Of a stretch of DNA of 64,000 nucleotides, positions 22,547 to 42,395 are shown one piece after another (the stretch's first letter is position 1; each line of letters opens with the position of its first letter). Made by a program: the position numbers and the translations under genes. The DNA comes from Pyropia yezoensis (Eukaryota; Rhodophyta; Bangiophyceae; Bangiales; Bangiaceae). The notes under the pieces were generated by a model. The model saw only the letters and a program-made list of their open reading frames with translations. It made no database searches and had not been told where the DNA came from. Location of the stretch: assembly GCA_009829735.1 (NCBI GenBank), contig CM020618.1, forward strand, positions 13,436,568-13,500,567. The letters are read 5' to 3'.

Positions 22547-23044
22547 ACCCCAGCGCGCAACAAGAGGGGCAAGGTCTGCTAGTGACAAGTGAATGGCAAG
22601 TGTGATCAATGGAAGCCCCCCTCCCCGAGAGGGGCTTATAGCGAAGCCCTCTAAGAGGGTCCTACACTATCACTGATGAACCGTGCGACCATTGCCCCCG
22701 CCGTCGCCGGCAGGGCTCGTCGCTGTGCGAGAATAGGCAGTGGCCCCGTCCAGAGCCCTCACCGAGACGAGTTTGGTCGTCGCCCGGACAGGGTTGGTAG
22801 TACCGCCACCGCCTCCACGGCCTCCACCGCCTCCACCTCCTCCACCGTCACCGCCACCGCCTTCACCGCCTCCACCGCCACCGCCTCCACCGCCACCGCC
22901 TACACCGCCACCGCCAGGACTGTCCGACACAAGCCACGGCGGGTGCCACTCCGATGCCGTGTCTCGGGACCACTGGGCAGTAGCCGCCAGAGGCCGACGA
23001 GGGTGACAGTTGCGGAAAAAGGGAAACCTAAACCGCCCCAGCAA
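22547..23044 (-). ncRNA. Candidate guide-RNA (omegaRNA-like) region 3' of Fanzor
   Basis: The 498 bp between the Fanzor stop and the next element carry no supported gene. Two tandem hairpins lie at 22613-22637 (AAGCCCC...GGGGCTT arms) and 22647-22659 (CCCTCT/AGAGGG). An imperfect CCGCCTCCA-type triplet repeat runs at 22797-22918. In the family the guide RNA overlaps or follows the nuclease 3' end, so its position is predicted here by analogy only. Confidence 0.35.
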
Positions 23045-24808
23045 TTAACTGACCGCCACCTGCGCGATATCGCGCGCCGCGTTCCTGTCCCGGTTGAGGT
23101 ACAGCCGACCACAGTCAGGGTTGACACACTTCTCCACGGACCAGCAAGCCAGCACGTCATAGCCGCCAGAGCGCTTGCCACTGACCAGAATCTCGGCCAA
23201 CCGCTCCCGCGCCTCGCCGGCATCGCGCTCCTCTGCCCTTACTCGCGGCGTCAGGTACTGTGAGGAGCACCCCCCGCGGTCGTCGCATCCGCGACGCCCC
23301 TTGGCCGCCCGTCGCCGGCGCACCGCCACCTTGCGCTTGCCGCCGTCTGCGTCACCAAGCGCCTGCGCCGCGCACTGCGCCACGTTGATGACCTGCCGCC
23401 TGTCATCCGGGGAGAGGTCGGTGGGGTAGACGAGCACCAGCCGACAGTGACAGTCGGCACAGGTCTGCGACGAGTTGTACTCGTCTTGGGTGGCGAGGAA
23501 GCACCCCCGCGCCACGCGGCGCCTCAAGGCGGTCGCCCCACCCCTCGTCGCTGCTGCCCCCCACACCACCAAGACGGCCTTGCCGTCCACGATGCGGCGA
23601 CCATACTCGCCGCTCAGATCCCGTGCGACTTTGGCCGCGAACCGTCCACGCTGCACATGGCGGTGGACGCGGGCCTTGCGCAGCGGCCGCAGCGCGTCTT
23701 TGCCATAGGCGCCAGCATAGTCGTCAGTGCTGCGAGCGGCAGCCCAGGTCAACGCGTCTGCCGACCAGTCCAGCAAAGTCGGCTGCTTGAGGGACGTACC
23801 CTCAAAGACATCCTCTGGGGTGGCCTCGGAGCCGGCTGGCCGGCTGCCCTCCCACACCGCCCGCCACGAGGCCTGCGCCCTTGCCATAATCTCGCCGCCC
23901 GACTGCTCGGCATGCGCAGCACTGCTCACAGACATTGTTGCCCCCCGAGGCGGACAAGTGGGGGGGCGTGATGGCGGGTGTCGGCGCCGTCTCTGCCACC
24001 GTCGTCGACAGGCGCCCTCGCCGTGCGCCCCGGCAGTGCCTTCGGCCCTCGCTGACCGCATTGCCTCTGCACACAGCGTGTCAATTAGCCACGCAGATGA
24101 GCCTGTCTGGGAGAGCTCCTCCCGCACCTCCTTGAGGAGGTCGGCACGTGTCACCCGCCTGGCCGTTGCCACGGGTCCCCGGTGCTTGCCCTGCGACCGT
24201 CGGCGCAGCCGGCCTCGGGAGACCTTGCCCGCCGCTGCCACGGTACCACCACCGGCAGCACCACCACTCGCACTCGCGACGCCTCGACCCACCCCCCCTG
24301 CCAAAGATGCATTGCTGCTGACGTTGAACGGCCCCACCACACTGGGGACGGACTCGCCAGCGACAGCGGTGGCCGCCGCGTCGTTTTCCACAGCCGAGGA
24401 TGGCAGCGTCTTGGGCTTTTTCCGGGTCCTGCGTACGACACACAGGGGCGGCAGGGCTGCCCGCCTTGCTTCTGCCGCCGTCTTGATCGCCTGGGCTTGC
24501 GACGGTGAGGCGAAAGCGGCGGCCAGCCGGATCAGAGCGCGCGCCGCCCGCGCCAGGGAGTGGGCTGCGACCGTCCATGCCCGCTCCGACCGGTACGCAA
24601 ACACGTGTGGCGACGGGACGACGACAAGGTCGGGATCCAGGCCCAGGGAGTAGGCCGTGTAGATGTCATTGACCCCCGGGTCCACGCCCACCACACACTT
24701 CTTAGCCGACCCTTCAAGGGGCAGCCCCATGGCGGCCGCGTGGTGTTCCAGGCTCGTCACCCCGCCGCGCGACTTGGTCCCGTTGCCGTCTCGCAGTCGT
24801 CGGGCCTG
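23045..24808 (-). CDS. Fanzor nuclease, RuvC and zinc-ribbon part
   Basis: This is the C-terminal, catalytic part of the Fanzor. RuvC-I is VVGVDPGVND (Asp codon 24680-24682). The glutamate of the rearranged Fanzor active site is in DEYNSSQTC (codon 23480-23482). RuvC-III is NRDRNAARDI (Asp codon 23087-23089). A zinc ribbon is formed by CADC after the glutamate and CVNPDC before RuvC-III. All expected catalytic and zinc residues are present. Between RuvC-I and the rest is an Ala/Arg-rich insert with KSRG/RRRSQGKHRG basic patches. The open frame's first possible start is a GTG at 24758-24760, so it is probably not translated alone. It continues in frame past a TAA at 24809 into the preceding segment. 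Single-copy here; likely nuclear. Confidence 0.82.
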   Translation of the reverse strand, partial: QARRLRDGNGTKSRGGVTSLEHHAAAMGLPLEGSAKKCVVGVDPGVNDIYTAYSLGLDPDLVVVPSPHVFAYRSERAWTVAAHSLARAARALIRLAAAFASPSQAQAIKTAAEARRAALPPLCVVRRTRKKPKTLPSSAVENDAAATAVAGESVPSVVGPFNVSSNASLAGGVGRGVASASGGAAGGGTVAAAGKVSRGRLRRRSQGKHRGPVATARRVTRADLLKEVREELSQTGSSAWLIDTLCAEAMRSARAEGTAGAHGEGACRRRWQRRRRHPPSRPPTCPPRGATMSVSSAAHAEQSGGEIMARAQASWRAVWEGSRPAGSEATPEDVFEGTSLKQPTLLDWSADALTWAAARSTDDYAGAYGKDALRPLRKARVHRHVQRGRFAAKVARDLSGEYGRRIVDGKAVLVVWGAAATRGGATALRRRVARGCFLATQDEYNSSQTCADCHCRLVLVYPTDLSPDDRRQVINVAQCAAQALGDADGGKRKVAVRRRRAAKGRRGCDDRGGCSSQYLTPRVRAEERDAGEARERLAEILVSGKRSGGYDVLACWSVEKCVNPDCGRLYLNRDRNAARDIAQVAVS

Positions 24809-25312
24809 TTACGCTTGCGCGGCCGCCACCTCGGCCGCGTCGGCGGGCCGCTCCAGCGTAAAGACGATACCCGTCCCGTCAGTAACCACGTACGGGCAAA
24901 AGCGGGACCGCCTTGTACGAACCCCGGCCATGGTGGCCAGCTTGGCGACACCGGCGCTCCCATTCGTGCCGCGACTTACCGCCCACAGGGTGTGCACCTC
25001 GCCGAGCCCCGGGTGTGAGACCAGTTGAGCCCGCTCCATCGCCCGCCGCAGCAGCGCCGGGGTGCCGTGCGTGTAGCGGCACAGGTCGGGTGCCAGGCGC
25101 GGAAAGACCGCATACGACGCGCGCTTCCGCGACAAGAGCAGCCGCTGCAACTCAATGAGGAGGGGAAGGAAAAGCAGCCAGCACCCCCGGCGGCGCGTCT
25201 CGGGGAGGGTGATGGCCAGCTCTGCGCCGAACTTAATGGACAGCACCCGCGAAAAGACATCCTTGAGGTCTGCGGCGATCCGCTGCTGTACGAGGGGTGG
25301 CGCCCCCGCCGG
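24809..25312 (-). CDS. Fanzor middle segment
   Basis: Same frame as the RuvC part. It reads QQRIAADLKDVFSRVLS, then ELQRLLLSRKRASYAVFPRL and CPYVVTDGTGIVFTLERP. Fanzor proteins keep such a helical block with a 'favfPr' motif and a 'tDG..v' strand just before RuvC-I, so order and content fit. It is bounded by a TAA at 24809 and a TAG at 25313. It has no convincing start of its own. Confidence 0.65.
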   Translation of the reverse strand, partial: PAGAPPLVQQRIAADLKDVFSRVLSIKFGAELAITLPETRRRGCWLLFLPLLIELQRLLLSRKRASYAVFPRLAPDLCRYTHGTPALLRRAMERAQLVSHPGLGEVHTLWAVSRGTNGSAGVAKLATMAGVRTRRSRFCPYVVTDGTGIVFTLERPADAAEVAAAQA

Positions 25313-26023
25313 CTACGAGCTGTCCTTGACCTCGTCGGCACCCCCCATCATCGTGTCGGCGATGAACCGCGTGAGCTTGCCGCGGACGGCGCGACGCTCA
25401 CGGTCTTGAGCGCGGCCTGCACGGGTGGACGCCTGCGCTTGCGCCTGTGCGATCGAGGGTGGATGCGCTAGCAGCCCGACCGCTTGCAGGGCGTCATCGA
25501 CCATCACCTTGGCAAGGCACGTCACTGCTGTCTTTGCCGTCCGTGCCACGTGCATCGAGATGGTCGTGGCCGCCGTCTTGAACGCAAGGGCATCGCCCGG
25601 GCCTGGAAGGTCCTTGCTGCAGGGCAGCGACGCCTCTTCTTGAACCGTAGACAAGAAGCGGGCAAAGGCGGTTGCAAACGCCGTGCCGCCCAGCCCGTCG
25701 CCGGCAAAGACCGACTCCAGGGGCTGATTTGCCGGGAGAGTCTGGCAGCTACCAGGGAGCTCGCCGTCGGGCCTCTCTGCCACCGCTGCGCCGCGACACG
25801 AGGTTGCCGCCGCGGCCCACCTGAACTGTGGCGGGTGGCTGCCGCTTGCCAGCGCCAAGGGTAGGGCGTCAACAAACTCCTGCATGGAGGCACTCGCCTG
25901 GTAGACTGACCGGAGAGCATACTCAATGCCCAATGTCACGAGGTTCCTGTGGCGGGTGGCCGCTACGTCCAGTGACTCGAGCGCGTAGCCTAGCGCCTGG
26001 GCCACCGCCGGGTCCCCGACCGT
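25313..26023 (-). CDS. Fanzor N-terminal helical segment
   Basis: Same frame again. It includes FKTAATTISMHVARTAKTAV, then VRGKLTRFIADTMMGG near its end, resembling the N-terminal recognition helices of Fanzor1-type proteins. Before that come unremarkable Ala/Ser-rich stretches. It ends at the TAG at 25313; upstream is the zinc-knuckle segment, joined through the TAG at 26024. The linking residues are open and without a start. Confidence 0.55.
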   Translation of the reverse strand, partial: TVGDPAVAQALGYALESLDVAATRHRNLVTLGIEYALRSVYQASASMQEFVDALPLALASGSHPPQFRWAAAATSCRGAAVAERPDGELPGSCQTLPANQPLESVFAGDGLGGTAFATAFARFLSTVQEEASLPCSKDLPGPGDALAFKTAATTISMHVARTAKTAVTCLAKVMVDDALQAVGLLAHPPSIAQAQAQASTRAGRAQDRERRAVRGKLTRFIADTMMGGADEVKDSS

Positions 26024-26806
26024 CTAGCGCGGCCGCGTCGGCGGCCCACCCCGACCACCATTGTTGTTGACGCTGGTGGCGCGATCTGCCGCCGCCCCCC
26101 CGAATGGAGCCGCCGCCAGGGGGCGGGTCGCCCCAACGCGAGCCAGTGCGAGTAGGACCGAGGTGTGCACCTTGTGCTCGCCCATGGCGTACGGGTCGGC
26201 AGCGTCGACACTGAGACCCCGGTCGCCCCCGACGGGGACCGCCGGGCAGGTGCGCGCCGTGTGCCCAGTCTGGTGACACTTGCCGCAAGGCGGGGCCTTG
26301 CGGCCCGGCTTGCGCGCCGCACCGTCTGCCGTGGCCGTCGGTACGCTGGCCTTGACCGCCGCGGCGTGTGCCGCGACCACGTGCATCTGTGAGTCACAAG
26401 TGCGTACGTAGTGACCCGCCAAGCCGCACCGGGAGCACTTGCGCCTCCCCGCGCTGGTCGTGTGGCTCACGGCAGCGTCACCGTGTGCGGGCTCCTCTGC
26501 AGTTGGACGAGCGGAGACCCGGGCCGGCGGCGTCGCACGGGCTGCCAGGCCACGGGCAGCCTGGCCAGCTGCGGCCGCCGCTGTGCCCGCCCGGTCAGCC
26601 ATCTCTTCCATCTCGGCGGGCACAGCGCCCTGTTGGCGGTCGAAAAAGTCGGCCACCGCCTTGGCCGTCGCCACAACACGCTGCGACACGCGGGCAGTTG
26701 CATCCACAGCGTTGTCGTTCGTAGAGGGGACACTGTCGGCAGGCGCGGGCTCACCCTGTGGCACACCTTTCCCGATGGACGTGAGAGAGTCCTGGGACTG
26801 GGCCAG
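26024..26806 (-). CDS. Twin CCHC zinc-knuckle segment upstream of Fanzor
   Basis: Two knuckles are visible: CSRCGLAGHYVRTC and CGKCHQTGHTARTC, both C-x2-C-x4-H-x4-C, separated by an Ala/Lys-rich spacer. CCHC knuckles bind single-stranded nucleic acid. The segment lies in the same frame as the Fanzor parts, separated from them only by the TAG at 26024, and it continues 5' past the TAG at 26807. It may be the N-terminal part of one long Fanzor polypeptide, or a separate accessory protein of the element (gag-like knuckles occur in many transposons). Confidence 0.6.
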   Translation of the reverse strand: MAQSQDSLTSIGKGVPQGEPAPADSVPSTNDNAVDATARVSQRVVATAKAVADFFDRQQGAVPAEMEEMADRAGTAAAAAGQAARGLAARATPPARVSARPTAEEPAHGDAAVSHTTSAGRRKCSRCGLAGHYVRTCDSQMHVVAAHAAAVKASVPTATADGAARKPGRKAPPCGKCHQTGHTARTCPAVPVGGDRGLSVDAADPYAMGEHKVHTSVLLALARVGATRPLAAAPFGGAAADRATSVNNNGGRGGPPTRPR

Positions 26807-27670
26807 CTAGGCTTGGAGGTCCGACCACCCCATCTCTTGCGCCGCCGCCATCGCCCCAGCCATCTCGTGCGCAGCTCCTCCGACGGCTCCCTGTGGCGCC
26901 TTGCGCTGCGTCGCCACATCACCGTCGGCGGGGGGCGCCTTTCCCCCCCCCCCCCGCGTCCTCGTCATCCGCCGTCGGTTCACCGTCGTTGCGGTGCCTC
27001 TTGCTGGCACGGGGAGGACGGGCGGAAGGTGCAGCTACAGCGCCTGCCCCCGCCCCGGTCGGCACGCTTGGCGCGCCGTCCGTCACGCACGCAGCGTCGT
27101 GGACGGCTCCTGCCAGAGTGCAGCTGCGCTCGAGAAGTAGAGGCCGTGGATGGACGGGCCCGACCAGCCGACTGGCCGCCACCAGGGTGCGCAGCGCAAT
27201 CTCATCAGGCCAGTCCTCCACGTTGGTGACCGGACACTCTCCTGGCGCTCGGGCCGTGTGCCATTGCCGTTGCCGCTGTCATTGTCGCCAGCAGACCCTA
27301 CCCCGTCTTGCTCTGCCACAGCGTGAATGTTGATGCCGTTTTCGACGACAGTCGCATCCGCGTGACTGTTTTTAAAGCCGCCATCCTCTTCCAGAGAGTC
27401 ATTGTCGTCCTCAAAAAGACTGGGAGCGTCAGCGCCTCGGTCGAGTGATGCAGCGTGGACGGCGGGGAAGCCGCTGCTCTCCCCACTGCCGCAGGTGCAC
27501 GCCCCACCACACCCGTCACCGCCACCGGCATCTTCGTTGCCACCACCATCGTCGTCGCCATCGTCGTCGCCCAAGGGCACCTCCTCGTCACTCGTGTTCC
27601 AGTCGTTTAGCGCGGTGGCCCGAGGAGATCCACCCAACCCATCGTCATCGTCGTCACTGTACTCGGACAT
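26807..27670 (-). CDS. Acidic N-terminal segment of the Fanzor locus
   Basis: A likely start is the ATG at 27670: MSEYSDDDDDGLGGSPRAT, followed by Asp/Glu/Gly-rich sequence to about 27240. From about 27235 the better-looking protein is one frame over (NVEDWPDEIALRTLVAASRL). It returns to the Fanzor frame at the C run 26941-26956 (read HEMAGAMAAAQEMGWSDLQA). Two frame changes, one at a homopolymer, suggest run-length errors, small introns or decay. No domain is recognised. Confidence 0.4.
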
Positions 27671-28332
27671 GACGCGTCCACGAGACGCCAAGAGGCAGAT
27701 GTCGGGGGGGGGGGGGGGAGGGAATGGAAGAGGTGACGGAAGGGGGGCGGGGGGGGGGGGGAGGGAACGGAAGACGTGACGGGAGGGGGGGGGGGGGGGG
27801 GGGGTCGGGGAGTGGGAGCGCGCACAACTTACTAGCCACCGTCTGCGAGTGTAGCGTAATAGAACCCAGGTTCCCGAAACTACAAGCCGAAAACACACAC
27901 GCAGAGACCACAGTCCGAAGCCCAGGAAGGAACAGGTAGGAGCCCTTGCTGATCCACTCGCCCGCCACGGTACCAGGCTAAGGTAAACAGGACAAAAGCC
28001 CGAGGGAGATGGAACCCAAAGCACTGTTGATTTTACAAGATGGCCACGGGGAGAACCCTGGAGCACCCCTCAAGAACCTCCCCCCCTGGCCCCTCCAGGG
28101 GCCCAGAGCGAGGCCCCCAGAGGGCCCCCCCCGCGGGCCCAGTGCCAGCAAGGCACTGGCCGCTCACCGGGCCAACACACGAAAAGCAAGCGAAATCTCC
28201 CCCCACACAAATGTCAATCCCCATAAAAAACCCAGTGGGAAAAAGGGGAAAGACACGAAATCCCAAGAAAAACAAATGCGAAAAATCAAGCAAATAACCC
28301 GAAGGTCAGTATCGTCACCAACCGACTTTCCT

Positions 28333-28420
28333 CGCTCAAAGCCAGGATTTTGAGCGCAGTTGATCCTATCAAGATACGAGGTCTGGAGCTGAAGTTGACA
28401 TGTGGTTGATACGGGATCAC
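28333..28420 (+). repeat. Short dispersed repeat, copy 1
   Basis: CGCTCAAA...GATTTTGAGCG forms a short inverted repeat (28333-28356), followed by TGATC and GGTTGATACGGG. A diverged copy in the same orientation is at 29999-30098. The family is unknown. Confidence 0.4.
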
Positions 28421-29819
28421 CCGATACGCCCCAGGATGCGACATCAGGTGATAGGAGTGTGATTGACAGCGCCTACACCAATGAAAAAGCAGTATTTCAT
28501 GAGAGGAACACACATCCCAGCAGCAGTCAAACTGGGGTGGACGGCCACTGCGCCGCCGTCCCCCCCGCTACTCCCCGACCCCGCGCTACTCCCGGCCGCG
28601 TAGCGCGAGCCTCCCACGCTACCAGCGCCGCGCACCACCACCACCGGAAGCGTGGGCCCGTGCACCACCACCACCGACAGCGCGGCGCCGCGCACCACCA
28701 TCACTGGCTGCCCGACGCCGCGTGCGGCCTCCACCGGCCCACGCCACCGCCGGGAGCGCGGCGCCAGCCCCCCACGCTGCCGACGCCAAGTACCACCTCG
28801 GCCGGCGGCGCGGCGCTGCGCACCACAGTGGCCGGCGGCGCGACGCGACCACGCATGTCCCCGCCGGCAGCGCGGCACCTCCGCCCACGCCGGCAGGGCG
28901 ACAAACCCGCCCCCCCCCCGCAGGGCCGCCCTCCCGCCCCGCCCAGCAGCACGAAACCGCCACAGCCACTCTCGACCAACAGCGTGACACCCCCGCCCCC
29001 TCCGGCAACGCGGCACCCCCACCCAGCCAGCAGCGCAGCTCTCACGTGAGCGGGGGTGCGCCTCCCAGCACACACAGAAAAGAAAAGATGAATGAGGAAA
29101 AGATACTAAAGCCACAGGAAAAAAAGCATAACACACTGCACAGGGAAAACACGCCACGCGCGTATACGCGCCACGCTAGGCAAAAGAAAAAGCGAGGGGC
29201 ACCACTGCCTCGACGGATCGGCGTTGGTGACGCCGGTCGGCCACCCCCTCCTGACCAGCACCCCCCCCACCCTACCCCACCCCTCCCCACTCCCCCTTCC
29301 AGCCTTCCCCACGTCCGCTCACCATCCCTCCCGTGCTATCCCCCTCCATCTCCCTGCATCCCCTTACGCCTCTCCCCAACGCACACTGCCCACTCCCCAC
29401 GCGGCTCCTCCGCCAGCAGGAGGGAATTCGCCAGCTCCCGCTCCCCGCAGTCACCGCCCAGCGCACATACGTCGTGTAGCGTTCCGCCAGCCGAGGGTCC
29501 GCAGCTGATGGTGGGGCGCCGCCGACAGTCGGCGCCAGAAAAGGTGAAGGCCGGCGATGACCTACGCAGCGATGACAGCGATGACGGTGGTGGCGGTGGC
29601 GGTTGCGGAGGTGGTAGCGGTGACGGTGGCGGCGGTGGCGGCGGTTGTGGTAGCGGTGGCGCAGTGAGGTTGGCGGCAGTGGCGGTGGCGGTGCAAGTGG
29701 TGGCGGAGGAGGAGGAGGGGCGGCCGACTGCTGTGCATCAGCGCCTGCACTGCTGCGTGGGCTGCAGCACAGCCCACAGTGCTGCCCTGGCACACCCAAT
29801 CTTTCGCGCACTTCAGGGC

Positions 29820-29881
29820 GACTGTCTCGCAGTCCCCCAGGCTGCCCCAGGCTGCCTGAGGAGGGGGACTACGAGACAGTC
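29820..29881. repeat. Strong 19-bp hairpin
   Basis: The arms GACTGTCTCGCAGTCCCCC (29820-29838) and GGGGGACTACGAGACAGTC (29863-29881) pair at 18 of 19 positions around a 24-nt loop. It could be a foldback remnant or a structured RNA precursor. No flanking duplication is evident. Confidence 0.7.
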
Positions 29882-29998
29882 CCCTCGGGAGTGTCTGAAC
29901 GCGGCGATAACTGGCAGCCCCAAGCCTGCTGCACCGTCAGCAAGCGCTCCACCCAATGAAATCGCGCCGCTCAGATCGCACTCGCGACTGGGGTCTCT

Positions 29999-30098
29999 CG
30001 CTCAATCGATCGATTTTGAGCGACAGGCGATGCGCATCAAGTGTCGTGTCAAACCCTACTTCTGAGCGAGGATCCGCGATCAAGAAGGTTGATACGGG
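29999..30098 (+). repeat. Short dispersed repeat, copy 2
   Basis: CGCTCAATCGATCGATTTTGAGCG (inverted repeat 29999-30022) and downstream GATCAAG and GGTTGATACGGG match the blocks at 28333-28420 in order. Confidence 0.4.
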
Positions 30099-30319
30099 CG
30101 TGAGCGGAGAAAAGCGTCTGCTGAAGATGCCCCCAGCCGGGCGAGTCCGCCTCTCCGGGGGGACCAATCAGGGCACCGGGCGTGTCGCCACTGCCCAGGG
30201 CCACTGATGCAGGGATCCCAAGCCAGCGCGTGGTTCCACGTAACGCTGCCAGCCGGGTCCCAAGTCAGCCTCCCAGTTCCCAACGGTACCCAAGGGCCAC
30301 AACGCCACAGCGAGTCCCT

Positions 30320-31148
30320 TTACGATGACCACGGCAACTGCCGCTCCCTCATCCCGTGCCAACAGCAGGCACGCCGCTGCCCGCCGCTGCCCGCCAGACT
30401 CGACAGTTTTGGGAGACGACGCAGTGCACAGCCGCGCGTACCGCATGCCCTGTGACAGGCGTGCCGACTGACACAGTGGCTTTTTGGCGGCTCGCCATGC
30501 CATGGTGCGAGGGCCACTCCGGGGAAAAACCGTCCCTGTGCCCCGAGGACGACCTGCGGCTGCCCAGACCCAGTCGCATGGAGCAATGCACGGGTCGCCC
30601 CGCTACAGGAGAGCGTGTGGTGTCGGAGCGAGCGAGTCGTTCTCTTGGGGCTCTCGATAGAGCTCGCCCGCTTGTGGCACACGACGTACGACGTGGAAGA
30701 CGAGCAGGTTCCTGGGTTGAGCTGCTGCGGGCGTCGGCGCCGTGCACCGCAAACACATCGCCACCGAAAAGTCTTGGTGCGCTGAGAGTGTACGGTGCGG
30801 TGCATGTAGAAATAATTTTGCACCTGACTGACGTTGCCCACCGCGGCCATCCCCCCGGCTGGTCCCGGTCCCGGTGCACGCCCCCCACCGCAACCGCCGC
30901 CGCCCCCTGGCCGTCGTCTGGGCGGAGCCCACCCGTCGCCCCCGCTGCCCCTACCACCACCGTCGCCACAACCGCTACTACCACCATGGCCGCTTCCGCC
31001 GCTCCTGGCTGGCGACGAGCGACCAGCCGCTGCCGGCGCCGGCAGGCTGTCGGCCGCGGCCAGCACGTCGTACGACGCCGCCGTCGACGACGCGACCCCG
31101 CATAACGCCACCCCCACCGCCACAGGACGTCGATAGTCGCTTGTCGCG

Positions 31149-31228
<80 letters not shown>

Positions 31229-31489
31229 AAGGGGGGGGAGGGGGGGGGACGACAGGCTGGAAGTAATCCCCGCCGCCAACCATGACCCCCTCCCCACCAT
31301 GTACGACGCCGCCACCGCCACCCAGACAACCCGAGCCGACGGCCACAGCCCCCAGCGCCACTTCCACCCCTGGCCAGTGCCCCCAGGTAGGACAAGTGCC
31401 GCCCTACATGGACGGCGCTTGTAGTCTGGCCAGCTACACCAAAGGAGGCACGGCGGTATGCCGCCGACACTGCCGTGGACAGGCCAGCA
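30320..31489. other. No supported gene; contains a 78-nt poly-G tract
   Basis: A G run fills 31150-31227, followed by further G-rich sequence. The minus strand has open frames with host-like Ala/Gly/Ser sequence (AVGVALCGVASSTAASYD, about 31050-31120), which may be remnants of a host gene. Their continuity across the poly-G cannot be judged. Confidence 0.4.
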
Positions 31490-31995
31490 TGCCACGTACA
31501 CGGGATTGGGGCCTGCCGGCAAGCCACCTACAAGGATTGGGGCCTGCCGGCAGGCCACCTACGTTGAATTGGACAAGCCGAAAGGCCACCGACTTTGATC
31601 TGGGCAGGCCGGCAGGCCACCGACATTGATCTGGGCCGGCTGGCAGGCCGCCGACATTGATCTGGGCAGGCCGGCAGGCCACCGACATTGAAGTGGGCAG
31701 CCCGGCGGGCCACCGACAATACGTGGCACAGGCCGGCAGGCCACCTATAATACGTGGCACAGGCCGGCAGGCCACCAACATCGACTTGGGGCCAGCCGGC
31801 AGGCCACCGACATTGAAGTGGGCGGCCCGGCGGGCCACCGACAATACGTGGCACATGCCGGCAGGCCACCGACATTGACTTGGGGCCAGCCGGCAGGCCA
31901 CCTACAATACGTGGCACAGGGCGACAGGCGACCGACTTTGACTTGGGCAGGCCGACAGGCCACTTACCATTCATTGGGGCCTGCCGGAAGGCCAC
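31490..31995 (+). repeat. GGCCGGCAGGCC minisatellite, array 1
   Basis: About 15 units of roughly 30-31 bp, each with GGCCGGCAGGCCACCGAC followed by a variable arm (ATTGATCTGGGCA, AATACGTGGCACA or ATTGAAGTGGGCA). The minus strand reads as a repeated WPAGLP/VGGLPA peptide, judged not to be a gene. A second array with the same core lies at 42240-42395. Confidence 0.88.
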
Positions 31996-32169
31996 AGAAC
32001 CCCAGCGGCGTGTCCGCCCAGCCCGCCCCCCCCGTCCGCTCCGCATGTACATCCCCCTCATCCTTCTTCCCGTTGGTCAACGCCCCCCCCCCCCCCCCCC
32101 CCCCCCCCGCCCCCCTCCCGCCCTCAGCCGCCTGCCCCCCGGTCGCCTGGTTCCCCCCCCCCCCCCCCC

Positions 32170-32638
32170 TGTGGCAGTATTAACCCCCAGGTAGGGGGGC
32201 AACACGTGCCATGCAAGGGGCGGCAGGCCACTAGCCTGATCCGTTCCTCCCCCTGCATTTGGGTCCATATTCCCTAAGTTTGGGATAGTTAGCTTAGTAG
32301 TAAATCCAACTTGGATTTGAGGGTTTTCTGCATTTATCGTCTTGAATTTTCGTGTGGCCCGGTGGGCAGGTGCTGGGGTGGGAGATTCTGAGTGGCGAGA
32401 TTCTGAGTGGACCCTGGGGGGATAAGGGGAGGGACAGCGGAGCTTGGCCCTGCGTCCCCGTCCCGACCAAGAAACTGTTGGACCACACACCATCCTCTTG
32501 TTTGTCCGTGGGGGGTTTGCCCCACAACAGGGACAGAGTGTGTGCGACTTGCACTTCTTCCGGTTCCCCCGACACGGGAGGCAGCCCTTGCACACCGCCC
32601 CAACTTGGGTGCCGTGTGTGCATGTGGTTTTTGCCACA
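32170..32638 (+). repeat. 5' LTR of the Ty3/gypsy element
   Basis: 469 bp, begins TGTGGCAGTATTA and ends TTGCCACA (TG...CA ends). It matches 39706-40174 end to end with about seven differences. The sequence right after it (TTTGGTGGAGCAGCAGGGG) is where a tRNA primer site would be; the tRNA is not identified. Confidence 0.93.
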
Positions 32639-32757
32639 TTTGGTGGAGCAGCAGGGGACAGAGGTAAACTTTACCTCCGGGTGCACCCAGGTGTAGGGGG
32701 CCCTCTGTCTCAGAGGAACGGTGGACTTGGACCGTGTCGTACGGATCGTCAGCCAAC

Positions 32758-34704
32758 ATGGCTAGCTCGGACCCCCCGTCGTCCGGGGAGTACACGGGTG
32801 ACGCACGTACTTCAGTGCCTTTGAATACTGGTGAGACACAGGTGGGTTTACCTGGGGTCGCAGAGGGACTAGAGGTCCCTCAAGCCAGCAGGACTGGAAG
32901 TACGGGCGGGCAACAGGCCACCCCAACTCAGTCGGGAGTTCACTCGGGTGACACTTCTGATGTGGGTGGGCCGAAGTCTGGCCACCGCGTGGTATACTCA
33001 ACGGGAACGTCCCAAGGGGTGAGGACTGTCCCCGCGGGTTCCACTCGGGTTGGAGCCAACTTTGGCTTGGAGCCGTCGCCAACTAGGCTTTCGGAGGACG
33101 GCGGACCTCCGTTGGTCGGCGATGGGCTCGCGCCCATGCCCCCGGTTGAGACCCCTGAGGAACGTGGTTACCCCTCAGGCGGACTCCCGGAGGCGGACCG
33201 AGACTCAACTGGAGTCGTCAATCCACTCCTCGCGGAAACTGTCCGTCGGGAGGCGACCAATGTGTTGCGGCAGACTTTGCCGGACCTGGTAGTCACGATG
33301 ACGAATACTATTCTGAATCAGATTGTGGCGAGTTTGCCAGATGGCCTTAATGTCCAGACCGGATTGGGGCTTTCGAGCCCGCAGGCGCAGGGGGAATCTC
33401 CCCTGACGCCTATTCCGGGTCGCCTCGAACAGGGGGGGACCCCTGTGACTCCCAACGTGGGAGCCGCACCATTCTCGGTGGGGCGTACGCCCTTCACGGG
33501 GGAGTTCCCCTCGGAAACGCCGGCGGCTACACCAAGCTCGCCGTACCAGATTACAGGCGCTGAGGGTCAACTTACCCCAGTGCCACAGCGGCTGTTCCCT
33601 CAACGTGAGGTGCCGCCCAAGATCCAGGTAGCCAACCCGGTCTACCAGCGGATCTTTGACTGTGAGACCTACGCCCTCCACAACAAGTCGGTGGCGTATG
33701 GTCCTGACCAGGCCCGAGCCATGGGCCGTGCCAAGAAGAATGCACTTCATTCTTTTGGGCACAAAGCGGAGTGGGATGGAACTCCCCCCCTCCGTGTCTT
33801 TGAGTTCCTACGTCGTTTCACAAAAGCCTGTGACGACAATGCCATAAGTGAAGGCATGGCTTTTTACATGCTACAGGAGTTTACGAAGGGCGACCTACGG
33901 ACAGAACTTATGTCCGTCATGCCCAGCTCCTCAAGTGGAGGCGCTGGGGAGGTGACGTCCTATTTGGAGCTCGTCAACTGGTTGTTGAGAGCCATGGTTG
34001 ATGAGGCAGCGTTGGCTTCTCAAGGCGAGGAATTTACGCAAGCCCACCAGGAAGAGGCGGAGGACGAGTTGTCCTTTGCGGAGCGAGTCCGTAAGCTCAA
34101 CAATCTTTGTGGGTTTCTTCATCCACAAGCTGTGGTGAAGAGTCGGTTTGTGGAGGGACTCCATTGGTCAGTACGGATGGAGACCCGGGAGCATAACACT
34201 GCCCGGGCGACCCTGGCCGAGTTGGCCAGGTTCGCTTACCGCAGAGGTGAGGCCTACCGCAAGTTGCGGGAGGAACAACGCCAGGAGCGTCAGGCCGAGT
34301 TGGCCAAGGAACGGGAGGAGGCGCGCCAGGCCAGAGAGTTGAGAGAGGCACGCCGAATCCGCAAGGAGAGGGTGGTAGCTGCCGTGGGAACTTCCCAGGG
34401 TATCCCTTCGTCTTCCCCAGTTGGGAAGACCCCTCAGGGAACTGACAATCGGTGTTGGACCTGCAACTCCGATGGACACTGGGCATATGATTGCCCCAAG
34501 TTGAGTAAACGCATCCAACAACTTGTTAGGAATGCGAGTAAAAAGACGGCTACGGACGAAGTACGTTCACGCCGCGAGGGTGGGTCTCGACCGGTCGTCG
34601 CGGTCGCCACACCCTCGGCGGAGGAGGCGGACACGTCGTCCTCGGACTCGTCGTCTTCCTCCCCGCCCTCAGATTCGGACGCCAAGTCGGCGGGAAACGA
34701 ATGA
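32758..34704 (+). CDS. gag of the Ty3/gypsy element
   Basis: Capsid/nucleocapsid frame of the element, 648 residues from the ATG at 32758. A Pro/Gly/Ser-rich N-terminus is followed by a helical capsid-like region and one CCHC knuckle (CWTCNSDGHWAYDC), then an acidic Ser-rich end. It overlaps the pol frame by 4 bp (ATGA), in a different frame. Confidence 0.88.
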   Translation: MASSDPPSSGEYTGDARTSVPLNTGETQVGLPGVAEGLEVPQASRTGSTGGQQATPTQSGVHSGDTSDVGGPKSGHRVVYSTGTSQGVRTVPAGSTRVGANFGLEPSPTRLSEDGGPPLVGDGLAPMPPVETPEERGYPSGGLPEADRDSTGVVNPLLAETVRREATNVLRQTLPDLVVTMTNTILNQIVASLPDGLNVQTGLGLSSPQAQGESPLTPIPGRLEQGGTPVTPNVGAAPFSVGRTPFTGEFPSETPAATPSSPYQITGAEGQLTPVPQRLFPQREVPPKIQVANPVYQRIFDCETYALHNKSVAYGPDQARAMGRAKKNALHSFGHKAEWDGTPPLRVFEFLRRFTKACDDNAISEGMAFYMLQEFTKGDLRTELMSVMPSSSSGGAGEVTSYLELVNWLLRAMVDEAALASQGEEFTQAHQEEAEDELSFAERVRKLNNLCGFLHPQAVVKSRFVEGLHWSVRMETREHNTARATLAELARFAYRRGEAYRKLREEQRQERQAELAKEREEARQARELREARRIRKERVVAAVGTSQGIPSSSPVGKTPQGTDNRCWTCNSDGHWAYDCPKLSKRIQQLVRNASKKTATDEVRSRREGGSRPVVAVATPSAEEADTSSSDSSSSSPPSDSDAKSAGNE

Positions 34705-37700
34705 CCGTTGGGGCTGGTCGTCCGAAGCTCACAACGGCAGCCTCGGCCAAGTGGGCCAGGAGGACGAACCAACCGTGCCGGATACTGCGGCGACCTAAGG
34801 GAGTCCGCCCACCTCGGGTAGGACTCTCCAAGAACGTAAACCCACGTCGGGTCATCGCGGTGCTGACGGGTGAGAACTTCCAGGTGGCTGGACGGGTGCA
34901 ACTTGCCCCCGGCCGCGCCTGTTGTGCCCGCATCGTACTTGATACCGGGTCAGGAGCCTCCTTGATACGCAAGTCGCTATTACCAAAGGAGGTGAAGCTC
35001 CAACGCTGGAGGTCCAAAGCTGACCATATGATTGACATCAATGGTGGGGTACTTCCCATCGTTGGTGCCGTGACCCAACAAACTAGGTTGGGGACCCATG
35101 AGGTCGACGTGACCTATGGTGTAGTTGAGAATATATCGGTACCCCTGCTTCTGGGTACCCCTTATGTTGTTACACAAGTGCCTTTGATTTGTGGCCCTGA
35201 GTACTGGGTCAAGTTGATGAATGGGGAGACTATCCCCATCCTTGGTAAGGGAAAGTCTGTGGCTCCTGTGACAGTCTCACAGTCGAAGCCTGTTTGCTCT
35301 GTGAGGGAAGGTTTTACTGCTACCCTGCGTTTAGCCCGTAAAGTCACGTTGCCCCCCAACTCGGTGGCGCACGTTGACGTTGTAACTGATTTTACGGGGA
35401 ACGGGTTGGTGCACCCTTACCCCCGTCTTGCTCGCAAGCACCAAGTGCATGTTGCCCTTGGCACGATGGACTCCAAAGCCGGAGTCCCGTGGAGGATACA
35501 GGTGATGAACCTGAGCTCGTCGCCCCAGTACTTCAAGTCGGGAGCCAAGTTCGGCTATATCGACCAACACGAGGGACCGGTAGTAGCGGTCACCCTCAAC
35601 GCGGGCGCAAGTAGCGACCCGAAGTCCGGAAAGGAGAAGCATCAAGCCAAGTCGGCCGCCTCTCCTCGACCCCATGTGAACATGGAGGGTGTCCCCCCCA
35701 GGTTGAGGGCTCAAGTTGAACGCCTCTTGGACCAATATCACAAGTTGTGGGATGGTCAATTGGGACTCATGAGAGCCACCCAACACCGGATCGAGTTGAA
35801 GCCCGGTGCACCCCCTATACGCCAACAACCGTATAGGGGAGGACCCCGTTCAAGGGCCCTCGTTAAGGAGCAAGTTGCTCGCATGGAGGCCCTCGACGTG
35901 ATCGAGGCCAGCAACGCCGAGTGGGTGAGTCCGGTGGTTATCGTCCCCAAAGTTGATGGGACCCCCCGGTTTTGTATCGACTACCGTAAGCTCAACGAGA
36001 GCACGGTGAAGGACAGTTATCCCCTACCTAGGATGGATGACTGTCTGGACTCTCTGGGGGAGGCAAACGTGTTCTCTACCCTGGACTGTAACGCGGGGTA
36101 CTGGCAAATTCCCATTGCCCCGGAGGACAGGCATAAAACTACCTTTACCTGTCACTGTGGTACCTACCAGTGCAAGCGTCTACCGTTTGGTCTGTGTAAC
36201 GCGCCGGCAACTTTCCAGCGCGCTATGGACATGATTCTGGCCGGAGTACGGTGGCAGATCTGTCTTGTGTACCTAGACGATATCATTGTGTTCTCCCGAA
36301 GTCCGGAGGAACACATTGGCCATCTTGGCCAGGTGTTCAAGCTACTTGCTGACGCCGGTGTGTTACTGAAGGCGAGTAAGTGCCACCTCTTTACTCAAGA
36401 GGTGGAATACTTGGGACATGTTGTCCGTCCGGGGCGTCTCAGTGTCAACGAGAAAAACTTGAGGGCCATCCGTAAGGCTCAGTACCCCCGGACCCAGACC
36501 CAGATGAGGAGCTTCCTCGGGATGTGTAACGTGTACCGACGTTTCACCAAGGGCTTCGCCAAGGTGGCGAAGCCGTTGAATGAGCTAGTGAGCTCAACGC
36601 TACCGAAGAACCTGCCTCCCCCAAGTCGGGTGGAGCAGGAATCCTTTGAGACTCTTCGGGACCTTCTGCTGAACCCCCCCATCTTGGCTATTCCCAGGTT
36701 CGGAGGCCACTACATCCTGGATTTGGACGCTAGCTACGACCAACTTGGTTGTGTGTTGCTTCAGCAGCAGCCGGACAAGGAGTACTTGCCGGTGGGATAC
36801 TTTTGCAAGGGGCTGAACTCGGCCGAGAAGAACTACGGAGTCACCGAGTTGGAAGGACTCGCAGTGGTGTGGGCGGTGACGTCACTTCGTCACTACCTGG
36901 AGGGTGAGAAGTTCCTCATCCGCTGTGACCACCGCGCGTTGCAGTTCATCTTTAAGTCGGACTGTACGAACACTCGTCTCAATCGGTGGAGGGTGCGACT
37001 GGCACCCTTCAACTTTGACATTGAGTACCGACCTGGCAGGCAACATGCCCTTGCCGACGGCCTCTCTCGGGTACCTACCGAGGGGCTGGACACTAACCCA
37101 GTCGATGAGGACATCCCCATCGTGGGGGTAGTCACGCGCTCGGGTCAGGCGTTGAACCCTGAGGCGCCAGGGAACAAGAAGTACTTGCCCCTGTCCCTGG
37201 ACGAGGTGGTGAAGGCCCAGGCCGAGGATCCCTTCTGCAAGTCTCAGAGGGATACACTGGATACAGTGGCGGAGACGCGGTTCTTCTTGGGAGACGATGG
37301 CCTCCTCATGAGGAGGGGGGTATTCCAGGGGACCGAACAACTTGTCGTCCCCGCATCCCTCAAGGGCAGTATCCTTGAGAGGGAGCACAACGCTCCCACG
37401 GGTGGACACCTGGGGTCTAGTAAACTGTACCAGACCCTGAGGACCAGGTACTACTGGCCGTCCATGGTGGTGGACATCTACAGTTGGGTGGCTGCCTGCA
37501 CAAGTTGTGCACAGAACCGTCTGATGGAACGGCGGCCTAGTACGGCTATGCTATTGTTCCCGGCCAAGGAGCCCTTCGCCGCGTTGGCGATGGACATCCT
37601 TGGGCCACTGCCAGTGACCGAAGAGGGCAACCAGTACCTCCTGGTCATCTGTGACCGCTTCACGAAACTTACGCGAGCGATCCCACTGGCAGAGATCACG

Positions 37701-38225
37701 GCCATGTCGGTCGTGTCAGCCTTCCTAGATCACTGCGTTGCCGCGTATGGCATTCCGGATAGTACACTATCGGACAATGGACCGCAATTTGCGTCTGTAC
37801 TGTTTCAGGGAGTGCTGGATATGTTGGGGGTTAAGGCAAACTATGCCACCCCCTACCACCCACATACTAACGGGCAGGTGGAGCGCTTCAACAAAACTAT
37901 TGTTCGGCAGCTGCGCGACTATGTGAGTGAGCATGTGAAAACGTGGGACCAATACATTTCTATTCTTACCACTGCCTACAATTCGCAGGTTCACTCATCT
38001 ACCGGGGAAGTACCCCTCGCTTTTGTGACCCCCCGTCGCGTGCGGTCTATTGCCGTGCGGCGGCCGCTCCCAACTAGGGAGGATGGTGGCAGTACGCCTA
38101 CTCCTACTGAGAGTAAGGCGGATTTCGCTGCTAGGCTTGAAAACCTCATCCCTAAAGTCAGGGCTGAGGTGGACAAAGCACAAAAGCGCTACAAGCGTAC
38201 CTATGACAAAAAGGTGGGGCCGTAA
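34701..38225 (+). CDS. pol of the Ty3/gypsy element
   Basis: 1174 residues. Retropepsin (DTGSGAS), reverse transcriptase (YLDDIIVFS), RNase H (DLDASYDQLG), and integrase with an HHCC zinc-binding part and a DDE core (DILGPLP, LSDNGPQF) follow in that order. No chromodomain is seen at the C-terminus. Confidence 0.95.
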   Translation: MTVGAGRPKLTTAASAKWARRTNQPCRILRRPKGVRPPRVGLSKNVNPRRVIAVLTGENFQVAGRVQLAPGRACCARIVLDTGSGASLIRKSLLPKEVKLQRWRSKADHMIDINGGVLPIVGAVTQQTRLGTHEVDVTYGVVENISVPLLLGTPYVVTQVPLICGPEYWVKLMNGETIPILGKGKSVAPVTVSQSKPVCSVREGFTATLRLARKVTLPPNSVAHVDVVTDFTGNGLVHPYPRLARKHQVHVALGTMDSKAGVPWRIQVMNLSSSPQYFKSGAKFGYIDQHEGPVVAVTLNAGASSDPKSGKEKHQAKSAASPRPHVNMEGVPPRLRAQVERLLDQYHKLWDGQLGLMRATQHRIELKPGAPPIRQQPYRGGPRSRALVKEQVARMEALDVIEASNAEWVSPVVIVPKVDGTPRFCIDYRKLNESTVKDSYPLPRMDDCLDSLGEANVFSTLDCNAGYWQIPIAPEDRHKTTFTCHCGTYQCKRLPFGLCNAPATFQRAMDMILAGVRWQICLVYLDDIIVFSRSPEEHIGHLGQVFKLLADAGVLLKASKCHLFTQEVEYLGHVVRPGRLSVNEKNLRAIRKAQYPRTQTQMRSFLGMCNVYRRFTKGFAKVAKPLNELVSSTLPKNLPPPSRVEQESFETLRDLLLNPPILAIPRFGGHYILDLDASYDQLGCVLLQQQPDKEYLPVGYFCKGLNSAEKNYGVTELEGLAVVWAVTSLRHYLEGEKFLIRCDHRALQFIFKSDCTNTRLNRWRVRLAPFNFDIEYRPGRQHALADGLSRVPTEGLDTNPVDEDIPIVGVVTRSGQALNPEAPGNKKYLPLSLDEVVKAQAEDPFCKSQRDTLDTVAETRFFLGDDGLLMRRGVFQGTEQLVVPASLKGSILEREHNAPTGGHLGSSKLYQTLRTRYYWPSMVVDIYSWVAACTSCAQNRLMERRPSTAMLLFPAKEPFAALAMDILGPLPVTEEGNQYLLVICDRFTKLTRAIPLAEITAMSVVSAFLDHCVAAYGIPDSTLSDNGPQFASVLFQGVLDMLGVKANYATPYHPHTNGQVERFNKTIVRQLRDYVSEHVKTWDQYISILTTAYNSQVHSSTGEVPLAFVTPRRVRSIAVRRPLPTREDGGSTPTPTESKADFAARLENLIPKVRAEVDKAQKRYKRTYDKKVGP

Positions 38226-38485
38226 CTATGGGCTTGTCCGGGGGTGGCGCAGTGTGGCGATCCACCCCCGGGGCATACGAGTAGTCCCCGATGCCCAACC
38301 CCTCTCGTAGTACCACTCAGCCGTCGTGAAGTTCACGAGCGACCCACACGAACTGGCGAAGTGCGCCATCCTCCTTGGGCCCACGAGTGGGGCGGCGCAA
38401 CTTGTGCTCAATGCTCTCCCACTCGATGAACTTGTGGGAGCGCAGCATCTCCTGAAGTAGAGTGAGCTGTCCTGATGAGCACCCC

Positions 38486-39538
38486 TCAGCAGCTAGCTGA
38501 GGGGTGAGCTGTTCCAAACCTTGGATCAGCCGGGGGGGCAAGATGCCAGAGCATCCCCCGCCGCTGAACACAAGACACCCAGGTCGACATGACCTCGAGG
38601 AGCCACTGGGTTGCCAACATGGCGATCACCAGGTGATCCGGGCTAGCCGTCAACATGACGGAGCCGAAGTGGTCAAGCAACCGTAGCAGCAACGCCGGGA
38701 ACCCGTAGGGGACCTCAACTTGAGGCCACCACTCGGGCTTCTTCGGATAGTACTGCTCCTTACTGGCAGCAGACTGTTGAGGAAACTCAAGTTGAGCCGA
38801 GGTCACCAAGTAGGGATCTCGCCGGAAGTCTTTCTCCATCCGCACATCAAAGTGATGAGTGTGCGGATCGGCCTCGTGGAGGTACGGGGGGCGAGTTGCC
38901 ACCGCGTCCCAAGTAAAGGTCGGCAAGTCGCCGGGACCCGGGATAGTTCCCCCGCGGTCCACCATGGCCTTGGCACGCTGAACGTCCTCAACCTCCTCAT
39001 CGTCCAGGAAGGCAAACTGGTCCGTCCTGAAGCCGGCAGGGAACCCGACCCTACGGGGATACTTTTCCCGTAGGCGGTCCCATACCCGACCCATCGCTGC
39101 GCCAAGTCGGCCACAGCGAAGAACAGTCAACCCCTCCTCATAGAGAGGCCAAGCGGGGTAAAACCACCGCCCCAAGGCCTCACGCGGGACAACTTGTCCC
39201 GCCTCCGGGGGAGACCCCGCCGTCAACCCAAAGCCGGGTGACGCGGGAGTCCCATCCCCCGGAGCGATCGCGGAACCCCCGCCGGAAGTCCCGGCGGGTG
39301 CTGCACCGTAGGTGGTGTCCTCCATACGCTCATCTAGAGAGTCCGTCTCCACTCCCGGGGTCGCCATGGCTCTCCCCAAGTTGGGGAGAGACGCTCTGGC
39401 TATCGCGGCACGAGACCCGCCTCGAGTTGAGGGGGACTCGGATCGTGGGTATACGGGTGGCCTCCCCAGCGTCGGGCGGCCCAGTGGAAGGTGAAGAGGA
39501 GGTGGTGGTGATGGTGAAGTGTGAACTGAGGCGAGCAA
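38486..39538 (-). CDS. Antisense open frame inside the Ty3/gypsy element
   Basis: A 350-codon frame on the strand opposite gag-pol, between pol and the 3' LTR. It reads like a normal protein (DLPTFTWDAVATRPPYLHEA, then PYLVTSAQLEFPQQ and WWPQVEVPYGFPALLLRLLD), with a Ser/Pro-rich N-terminus. No family is recognised. Accessory antisense frames in this position are known from some plant Ty3/gypsy lineages. The exact start is uncertain. Confidence 0.55.
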   Translation of the reverse strand: MLASVHTSPSPPPPLHLPLGRPTLGRPPVYPRSESPSTRGGSRAAIARASLPNLGRAMATPGVETDSLDERMEDTTYGAAPAGTSGGGSAIAPGDGTPASPGFGLTAGSPPEAGQVVPREALGRWFYPAWPLYEEGLTVLRCGRLGAAMGRVWDRLREKYPRRVGFPAGFRTDQFAFLDDEEVEDVQRAKAMVDRGGTIPGPGDLPTFTWDAVATRPPYLHEADPHTHHFDVRMEKDFRRDPYLVTSAQLEFPQQSAASKEQYYPKKPEWWPQVEVPYGFPALLLRLLDHFGSVMLTASPDHLVIAMLATQWLLEVMSTWVSCVQRRGMLWHLAPPADPRFGTAHPSASC

Positions 39539-39705
39539 GCTGCCGAGTGGGCAAGCTTGAGGAGAGGGGCGGTCAACGTGACCGCCTCCACATCCGCGTT
39601 ACGTACTCGATGGGGGACAGCAAGTCGCGCCCCCAACGCCGAGACGTGCGTTTACGCACCCCCTCACAGGGCCGACCGGGTCGGTCGTAACTGAGGAGAG
39701 GGGAG

Positions 39706-40174
39706 TATGGCAGTAATGACCCCCAGGGAGGGGGGCAACACGTGCCATGCAAGGGGCGGCAGGCCACTAGCCTGATCCGTTCCTCCCCCTGCATTTGGGT
39801 CCATATTCCCTAAGTTTGGGATAGTTAGCTTAGTAGTAAATCCAACTTGGATTTGAGGGTTTTCTGCATTTATCGTCTTGAATTTTCGTGTGGCCCGGTG
39901 GGCAGGTGCTGGGGTGGGAGATTCTGAGTGGCGAGATTCTGAGTGGACCCTGGGGGGATAAGGGGAGGGACAGCGGGGCTTGGCCCTGCGTCCCCGTCCC
40001 GACCAAGAAACTGTTGGACCACACACCATCCTCTTGTTTGTCCGTGGGGGGTTTGCCCCACAACAGGGACAAAGTGTGTGCGACTTGCACTTCTTCCGGT
40101 TCCCCCGACACGGGAGGCAGCCCTTGCACACCGCCCCAACTTGGGTGCCGTGTGTGCATGTGGTTTTCGCCACA
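39706..40174 (+). repeat. 3' LTR of the Ty3/gypsy element
   Basis: 469 bp, begins TATGGCAGTAATGAC and ends TTCGCCACA. It is colinear with 32170-32638 and preceded by the polypurine tract. Confidence 0.93.
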
Positions 40175-42050: not shown

Positions 42051-42239
42051 CCCCCCGCTCCCCCCCCCTCCCCTCAGAAACCGTCGTCCGGGTGACGGAG
42101 GCGCGGGGGGTGCGGACACTGGGAAAGGGGGGGCCTGGTGCAACCGTCCGTCCCTCCCCCCCAAACCAGACGGCGGTTTTTGAGGGGCAGGGCACCTACA
42201 CGGCAGTGCGGCCTGCTGACGAGCCACCGTTACGTGATT

Positions 42240-42395
42240 GGGGCAAGCCGGCGGGCCAGGGACTTTGAATTGGGCTGGCCGGCAGGCCACCGACAATGCG
42301 TGGCACAGGCCGGCAGGCCACCGACAATGCGTGGCACAGGCCGGCAGGCCACCTACAATACGTGGCATAGGCCGGCAGGCCACAGAAAATACGTG
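42240..42395 (+). repeat. GGCCGGCAGGCC minisatellite, array 2
   Basis: Four to five units of GGCCGGCAGGCCACCGACAATGCGTGGCACA type, the same core and orientation as 31490-31995, now on the other side of the LTR element. Confidence 0.88.

Follow-up and report, generated by a model that had tools for sequence, protein, structure and literature searches.

Fanzors are RNA-guided nucleases of eukaryotic mobile DNA and relatives of CRISPR enzymes. A DPG motif and a rearranged glutamate in the arrangement E-x6-CxxC set them apart from TnpBs (PMC10711439). They generally comprise 400-700 amino acids (aa) (PMC10432273), most Fanzor1 proteins having 600-700 aa (PMC11423790), and from red algae a Fanzor1 has been recorded in Cyanidioschyzon merolae (PMC3627910). 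In Spizellomyces punctatus, a right-end region of 75 nt forms the omega-RNA scaffold and is followed by a guide of 14-15 nt derived from the flank; what Fanzors do in their hosts is described there as unknown (PMC10432273). Here we describe a Fanzor-type gene of the red alga Pyropia yezoensis, which lies in a stretch of 64,000 nucleotides (the window, C1:13436568-13500567; positions are counted from its first letter) and was compared with the whole genome of 107,475,971 bases in 11 contigs. The locus very probably is a decayed copy of a Pyropia yezoensis transposon family encoding a very large Fanzor-type RuvC nuclease. Taken alone, the window copy is a dead relic of an ordinary kind; of greatest interest is a finding from beyond the window, a related family with many open copies and a linked helicase.

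A Fanzor-type reading frame

On the minus strand, the open reading frame (ORF) at 23045-24808 (587 codons) holds VVGVDPGVND, DEYNSSQTCADC, CVNPDC and NRDRNAARDI, so that zinc cysteines, NRDxxAAR, DPG and a glutamate six residues ahead of CxxC together make up the Fanzor signature. The Asp of VGVDPGVND at RuvC-I is residue 43 of the ORF, and the rearranged glutamate (Glu 443) stands in EYNSSQTCADC, with EFNTSKACSEC and EFNTSQACSEC as its counterparts in L041 and L042, two proteins of a related family which also possess the DPG. A strict version of the ordered motif appeared in 0 of 20,000 shuffles of this ORF and a loose one in 4 of 20,000, and even the loose motif is found in no other stop-to-stop ORF of at least 200 aa in the window. 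The similarity to L041 and L042 extends from the knuckles described below to the glycine tail (422 of 1,228 aligned residues identical, 34%); the first CxxC lines up, as do the three acids, and the VTDGTGIVFTLERP of the window protein aligns with STDGVAVTFFLSRP of the related family.

The architecture deviates in spacing and size. The zinc ribbon is interrupted by an insert of ~93 residues; CADC and CVNPDC are ~107 residues apart, outside the CxxC-x(12,18)-CxxC spacing, which is the C4 zinc-ribbon search pattern of PMC10711439, and CVNPDC has four residues between its cysteines (the second pair of L041 is CYTC). The pattern of Bao and Jurka, D-X(125,275)-[TS][TS]-x-x-C4-X(5,50)-RD, is not matched as a whole, although order and residues fit (SSQTC...NRD). 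With ~1,660 codons in the window gene and 1,413 aa in L041, both proteins exceed the range of 400-700 aa, and the N-terminal zinc knuckles are CCHC-like, the Pfam zf-CCHC match (E=0.0031, 18.0 bits) remaining under the cut-off of 20.8. By its residues, the window gene thus reads as Fanzor-type, and its spacing and length depart from the published pattern.

Profile searches scored higher with a trimmed probe, in which the two zinc-ribbon halves are joined without the 93-residue insert: Pfam TNB (PF07282) then scored 2.1e-7 and 31.5 bits (cut-off 26.3) versus 2.2e-4 and 21.8 bits with the untrimmed ORF, a PHROG transposase matched at 8.4e-5 (E 0.31 and 0.41 with the insert left in), and Cas12f models matched at 4e-4 and weaker. 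Among the solved structures of the PDB, the trimmed probe found mimivirus L79 (TnpB-like, and presumably a Fanzor2), LaTranC and ISDra2 TnpB at E 0.15-0.32, the glutamates being aligned in L79. With probes A1 and A2, profile searches of the PDB were dominated by matches to glycine linkers, and searches of NCBIfam, Rfam, viral contigs and phage records confirmed nothing.

A first-pass annotation of the window had proposed a Fanzor/TnpB-type gene in an algal genome, and the motifs it quoted are indeed all contained in ORF 23045-24808. The refutation test that it set out was run on sequence alone: in the profile search the zinc-ribbon part groups with TnpB/Cas12f, and the three acids align with those of the related, intact-looking family. 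Its interval (23045..26023), however, embraces only the middle and end of the ~1,660-codon gene, and it overlooked a protein of more than twice the usual Fanzor size as well as the CCHC-like knuckles at the N-terminus.

Decay of the window copy and past selection

The gene most likely ran from an ATG at ~27670, a start seen in the window copy alone, to the TGA at 22670-22672, because two other copies, L003 and L013, have an unbroken frame over the N-terminal part in which the window copy appears to shift frame. In the window copy this frame is broken by TAG 26807-26809, TAG 26024-26026, TAG 25313-25315, TAA 24809-24811 and TAA 23045-23047, none of which is present in the aligned rows from other genomic places (0/12 at 26809, 0/12 at 26026, 0/14 at 25315, 0/11 at 24811 and 0/15 at 23047); it should be noted that some of these rows represent pieces of a single copy or are nearly identical to each other (L008/L010, L014/L015, L028/L029). 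Two apparent frame changes, one near 27240 and one at the G-run 26942-26953 (read by eye), add to this damage. Since the five stops are private to the window copy and accompanied by frame changes, this copy is a pseudogene, and with five nonsense codons, two frame changes and two upstream insertions it cannot make the Fanzor protein.

The first-pass annotation had correctly placed N-terminal blocks in the same frame (the upstream ORFs 24812-25312 and 25316-26023 share it), but it left unmentioned the stops at 24809-24811 and 25313-25315, which part these ORFs, the two TAGs further upstream, and the fact that the TAA at 23045-23047 is private to this copy. Its statement that the copy keeps all catalytic and zinc residues is true of the letters and says nothing on the activity of a gene so broken. 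Among the loci fetched for the window family, the longest open stretches are 626 aa (L004) and 601 aa (L005), and no locus is open across more than 631 of 1,378 compared residues; these figures are no survey of whole copies, since each locus comprised the matching stretch and 1.5 kb beyond it.

Past purifying selection is visible in a codon test across 23048-26806, which comprised 24 merged copies including the window copy (L015 and L029 were left out as near-duplicates) and took only sites with at least 6 copies. Minor alleles found in at least two copies had a nonsynonymous to synonymous ratio of 361/239 = 1.51, and alleles seen once of 1301/565 = 2.30, with a neutral expectation of 2.43 (shared versus single, Fisher p = 2e-5); 48 stops occurred among the singletons and 5 among the shared alleles. 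The other two frames show no such effect or the opposite one (2.54 vs 2.45, p 0.76; 3.10 vs 2.51, p 0.05). Shared variants avoid amino-acid changes and private ones do not, and therefore the gene worked in the source lineage: it was kept by selection in source copies and left to decay once inserted. The earlier suggestion that the copy derives from an active lineage is borne out in so far as that lineage was under selection.

The transposon and its right end

The gene belongs to a repeat family with at least 29 related loci in the same genome, or 23 once pieces of a single copy are joined and two near-duplicates are left aside; the DNA search with 22450-28450 gave 52 matches (best 40 of 922 candidates scored), 12 of them in a nested insert and not in the Fanzor element. 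Of the 15 rows reaching the right end, 13 stop at 22600-22605, and where it is reached this common end abuts varied flanks, a fixed right end that marks carriage by a eukaryotic transposable element. The left end at ~42396 is approximate, because the two longest matches start (query 1005 and 1007) within a repetitive array. Both insertion sites are unbroken in the L031 copy.

At the sharp right end, where the stop codon of the Fanzor gene sits in the first strand of a 73-base fold, the stretch 22605-22700 folds stably (minimum free energy -44.2, z -3.58, 1 of 200 shuffles as good), and in an alignment of 13 rows 94.3% of the cells pair; at the corresponding end of the related family the fold stands out less (z = -1.64, equalled by 13 of 200 shuffles). 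The guide of the putative omega-RNA would be the flank below 22605. Judging from tested Fanzors, source copies would make omega-RNA from the right end, with a 3' guide coming from flanking host DNA; the Fanzor-RNA complex could then cut DNA in which the target sequence is accompanied by a target-adjacent motif, such as a donor site that the element has left, and repair templated by an element-bearing copy would keep or multiply the element. The window copy would no longer perform any of these steps.

With regard to the carrier, Helitron features are mixed: 3' hairpins are present, the end reads CATTGAT rather than CTRR, and the one upstream ORF scanned with Pfam (40178-40633) gave no match, so that a RepHel protein may still lie among the others. 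One-ended transposition, as in the Chlamydomonas CRe elements, was also considered, copies sharing the 3' end and varying in their 5' start. In 8 of 14 rows, ...CA stands at the broken 5' edge, or no more than one base away, before the element resumes, resembling the end of a long terminal repeat (LTR), and because of these edges and of two mutually similar flanks, nested LTR insertions are the simpler reading of the 5' breaks. The features of the locus are collected in Table 1.

Table 1. Features of the Fanzor-bearing element in the window (positions within the 64,000 nucleotides)
Feature	Position	Strand	Remarks
Whole Fanzor-bearing transposon copy	22605..42396	-	~9.3 kb net of two insertions; right end sharp, left approximate
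Putative omega-RNA scaffold	22605..22677	-	three-way junction closed by AUCAGUG/CAUUGAU; ends at the element's right end
Fanzor pseudogene	22670..27670	-	family frame, ATG ~27670 (inferred) to TGA 22670-22672, ~1,660 codons
C-terminal tail with glycine-rich run	22673..23044	-	coding in other copies
RuvC part	23048..24808	-	DPG (Asp 43), DEYNSSQTCADC (Glu 443), CVNPDC, NRDRNAARDI, zinc-ribbon insert of ~93 residues
Middle part, recognition/wedge-like by position	24812..26023	-	holds VTDGTGIVFTLERP; domain assignment inferred
N-terminal part, two CCHC-like zinc knuckles	26027..26806	-	Pfam zf-CCHC, two stretches
Nested LTR-like insertion	27850..30309		TG...CA, 5-bp duplication GCGAG; no LTR pair shown
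31-bp tandem array within the element	31474..31995	-	
Nested LTR retrotransposon	32169..40174		LTRs 32169-32639 and 39705-40174, 98.7% identical
31-bp tandem array at the element's left end	42277..42396	-	

Several further observations concern the insertions and the surroundings. Outside the window, the 475-bp end of the LTR-like insertion (27850-28324) matches the genome at least 12 more times, with 93-94% identity in 11 cases. The LTR retrotransposon at 32169-40174, located in the 5' part of the Fanzor element, is young and has stop-to-stop frames of 1227 and 678 codons; its relatives occur in the stretches around other Fanzor copies (L032, L035, L037-L039). Arrays of the 31-bp repeat (unit GCCGGCAGGCCACCGACATTGA...; 31474-31995, 42277-42396 and L031:189-3040) are found in both orientations near Fanzor elements. 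Another repeat, at 42440-43400, has four long matches at 87-91%; most of its copies end at 42440-42442, ~45 bp from the left end of the Fanzor element. Just past the right end, at 22482-22525, stands a perfect 22-bp tandem pair, CCGGGCATCATTTGATGCCCAG, which is partly palindromic, and a similar stretch follows the broken 3' end of L022. The sole tRNA identified by ARAGORN in the window is a tRNA-Arg (ccg) on the minus strand (20034-20109).

A related family with open frames and a linked helicase

A protein search of the genome with the ORF of L005 gave at least 79 matches and, besides the window family, revealed a group at 31-47% identity. At 17 places, the match to this related family is free of stops and falls within an open frame of at least 1,445 codons, though one of the 17 (C2:10733596) shows a TGA in a second match; further places have shorter frames or stops. 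L041 represents an ORF of 1,413 aa beginning with ATG, and 1341 of its 1399 residues aligned with L042 are identical. Searching with the 3' end of this family resulted in 42 matches at 40 places (the best 40 of 271), 39 of which end at query base 629-635, and the terminal motif (up to 3 errors) is present in 9 of 9 related copies examined, followed by differing flanks. Ten matches of 36-46% identity to the L005 protein, for example C2:18415767, C1:4352294 and C2:15964607, are perhaps more diverged Fanzor relatives.

Upstream of the related Fanzor and on the same strand lies a gene for a superfamily 1 (SF1) helicase (AAA_12 4.8e-35, AAA_11 8e-22). Among 40 helicase places (the best 40 of 57 candidates), 28 are followed by a related Fanzor on the same strand no more than 15 kb downstream, and none (0/40) shows the wrong order or strand; 23 of the 28 pairs include a listed 3' end, at a median distance of 6,972 bases, and, seen from the other side, the helicase is found upstream of at least 23 of the 40 listed Fanzor 3' ends. 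This pairing test used 40 of the 42 3'-end matches (two second pieces were excluded) and 40 rows of the protein search, and it excluded the window family, second matches at a listed place and the 10 matches of 36-46% identity; as both lists comprise best-scoring rows only, the figures are lower bounds. At the C2:10.74 Mb copy, the helicase frame spans more than 2,000 codons from stop to stop, with one stop inside. The places read for this helicase-Fanzor family are L041, L042, L059 and L060 (C1:21.75 Mb, C2:27.92 Mb, C2:10.74 Mb), and the stretches seen end short of the left end of the element. In the window family's own element no similarity to the helicase was detected at E 0.001, either in the window or in L001-L040.

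Taken jointly, these data leave it evenly balanced whether Pyropia, and perhaps all Bangiales, hosts a giant Fanzor lineage, one branch of which moves as a helicase-Fanzor transposon. Such a lineage would be characterised by proteins of ~1,400-1,660 aa with an acidic N-terminus, CCHC-like knuckles and a glycine-rich tail; its mobile branch would be intact-looking and multicopy, with an Upf1/Sen1-like SF1 helicase protein followed by the Fanzor on the same strand, and with no known transposase in the stretches seen. If true, the helicase would be a new partner of RNA-guided nucleases in the mobile DNA of eukaryotes, possibly opening DNA for element copying or for Fanzor repair.

Alternative explanations

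Several results weigh against a Fanzor-bearing transposon family. At the level of the protein, the gap between the first Asp and SS is 402 residues, outside the 125-275 of the published pattern, with low-complexity stretches within, and the DPG is kept in 6 of 11 aligned rows of the window family and lost in 5, though decay would give the same. Untrimmed PF07282 matches (21.8-23.9 bits) stay below the cut-off, with 6 of 13 members matching at E up to 1; the related family scores 26.2 bits trimmed, just below the cut-off, and 15.2 untrimmed, and PF07282 searched against the whole genome gave nothing at E 0.001. No significant single-sequence match to any solved Fanzor was obtained, and with the trimmed probe a chance PDB match, cathepsin D (0.07-0.08), outscores both L79 (0.15) and TnpB (0.32). 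At the level of the element, the right-end structure is not demonstrably conserved, because over 13 rows no pair changed on both sides and shuffles pair as well. No target-site duplication was found for the window family (the longest shared flank words are 4-6 bases), and by eye no transposase was recognised in the upstream ORFs, of which only 40178-40633 was scanned with Pfam, giving no match.

Among the competing explanations, the one that fares best, although unlikely, regards the gene product as a TnpB-related protein which has lost RNA-guided cutting and serves the element otherwise, by DNA binding or regulation. Twice the known Fanzor size, long inserts, knuckles and a putative RNA lacking covariation would suit it, and the great length and the knuckles would then be there because the protein serves the element in another way; yet both related proteins read retain all three acids as well as the first CxxC, and the right end is laid out like tested omega-RNAs.

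Very improbable is an intact, spliced gene whose stops fall within short introns, which would turn the window copy into a working Fanzor. It draws on the fact that three of the four internal stops are TAG after C or G, as at intron ends, and that GT...AG stretches can be drawn by eye around some of them. However, none of the aligned rows carries a stop at these places (0/11, 0/14, 0/12 and 0/12; L025 has a small insertion near one), the private variants are as unconstrained as neutral DNA, and the frame is open over compared residues 337-955 in L004 and 509-1109 in L005, both running past the position of the 24809 stop. The reading by short introns was rejected on the evidence of these other copies.

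It is scarcely credible that the locus is a domesticated host gene of Fanzor origin rather than a transposon copy: the reading frame was under past selection, as domestication would have it, but 29 related loci whose right end, where it is reached, is shared while the flanks differ, two insertions within the window element and the failure of every fetched window-family locus to stay open over more than 631 of 1,378 compared residues speak against it. Chance may be dismissed, for although the high GC content (0.51-0.81 per 2-kb step, mostly above 0.6) yields many long open frames in which motif look-alikes could arise, the strict motif occurred in none of the 20,000 shuffles, selection is specific to the frame, and a homologous family has aligned motifs.

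Comparison with known systems

A search of the literature found no paper pairing Fanzor with Porphyra or with a zinc knuckle; as most subscription journals were outside this search, Fanzors of giant size or with a linked helicase may already have been published elsewhere. One of the closest described systems is SpuFz1 of Spizellomyces punctatus (SPu-1), which shares the RuvC D-E-D with a glutamate beside the zinc ribbon, the carriage by a transposon and a structured stretch of ~75 nt at the right end (PMC10432273). SPu-1, however, is ~2.1 kb long, encodes a protein of 633 aa and has 33-bp inverted repeats (PMC3627910), whereas the window element has ~9.3 kb and ~1,660 codons, possesses CCHC-like knuckles, a glycine-rich tail and 31-bp arrays, and showed no terminal inverted repeats that we noticed. 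The Helitron-borne Fanzor1 elements CRe-1, 2 and 3 of Chlamydomonas are likewise algal and multicopy, with a 3'-end hairpin and many copies without 5' parts; they differ in having five to ten exons and have been read as cases of one-ended transposition (PMC3627910), whereas 8 of 14 5' breaks in the window family resemble LTR junctions.

An extra insertion in the RuvC domain is also known from the Fanzor1 of Parasitella parasitica, PpFz1, where it measures ~100 aa and is called a notable exception among proteins of 600-700 aa (PMC11423790). The Fanzor1 of Cyanidioschyzon merolae (CMe), one family in Table 1 of PMC3627910, is likened here by its red algal host only. For the zinc-ribbon/RuvC-III region, ~50 residues of the trimmed probe align with mimivirus L79 (PDB 9b0l) and ISDra2 TnpB, both compact proteins (chains of 520 and 408-410 residues), at E of only 0.15 and 0.32. 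Compared with these systems, the size and the knuckles of the Pyropia proteins widen the known range of Fanzor architecture, and a dying family with a history of selection next to an open, helicase-linked family in one genome allows the direct question what the nuclease does for its element.

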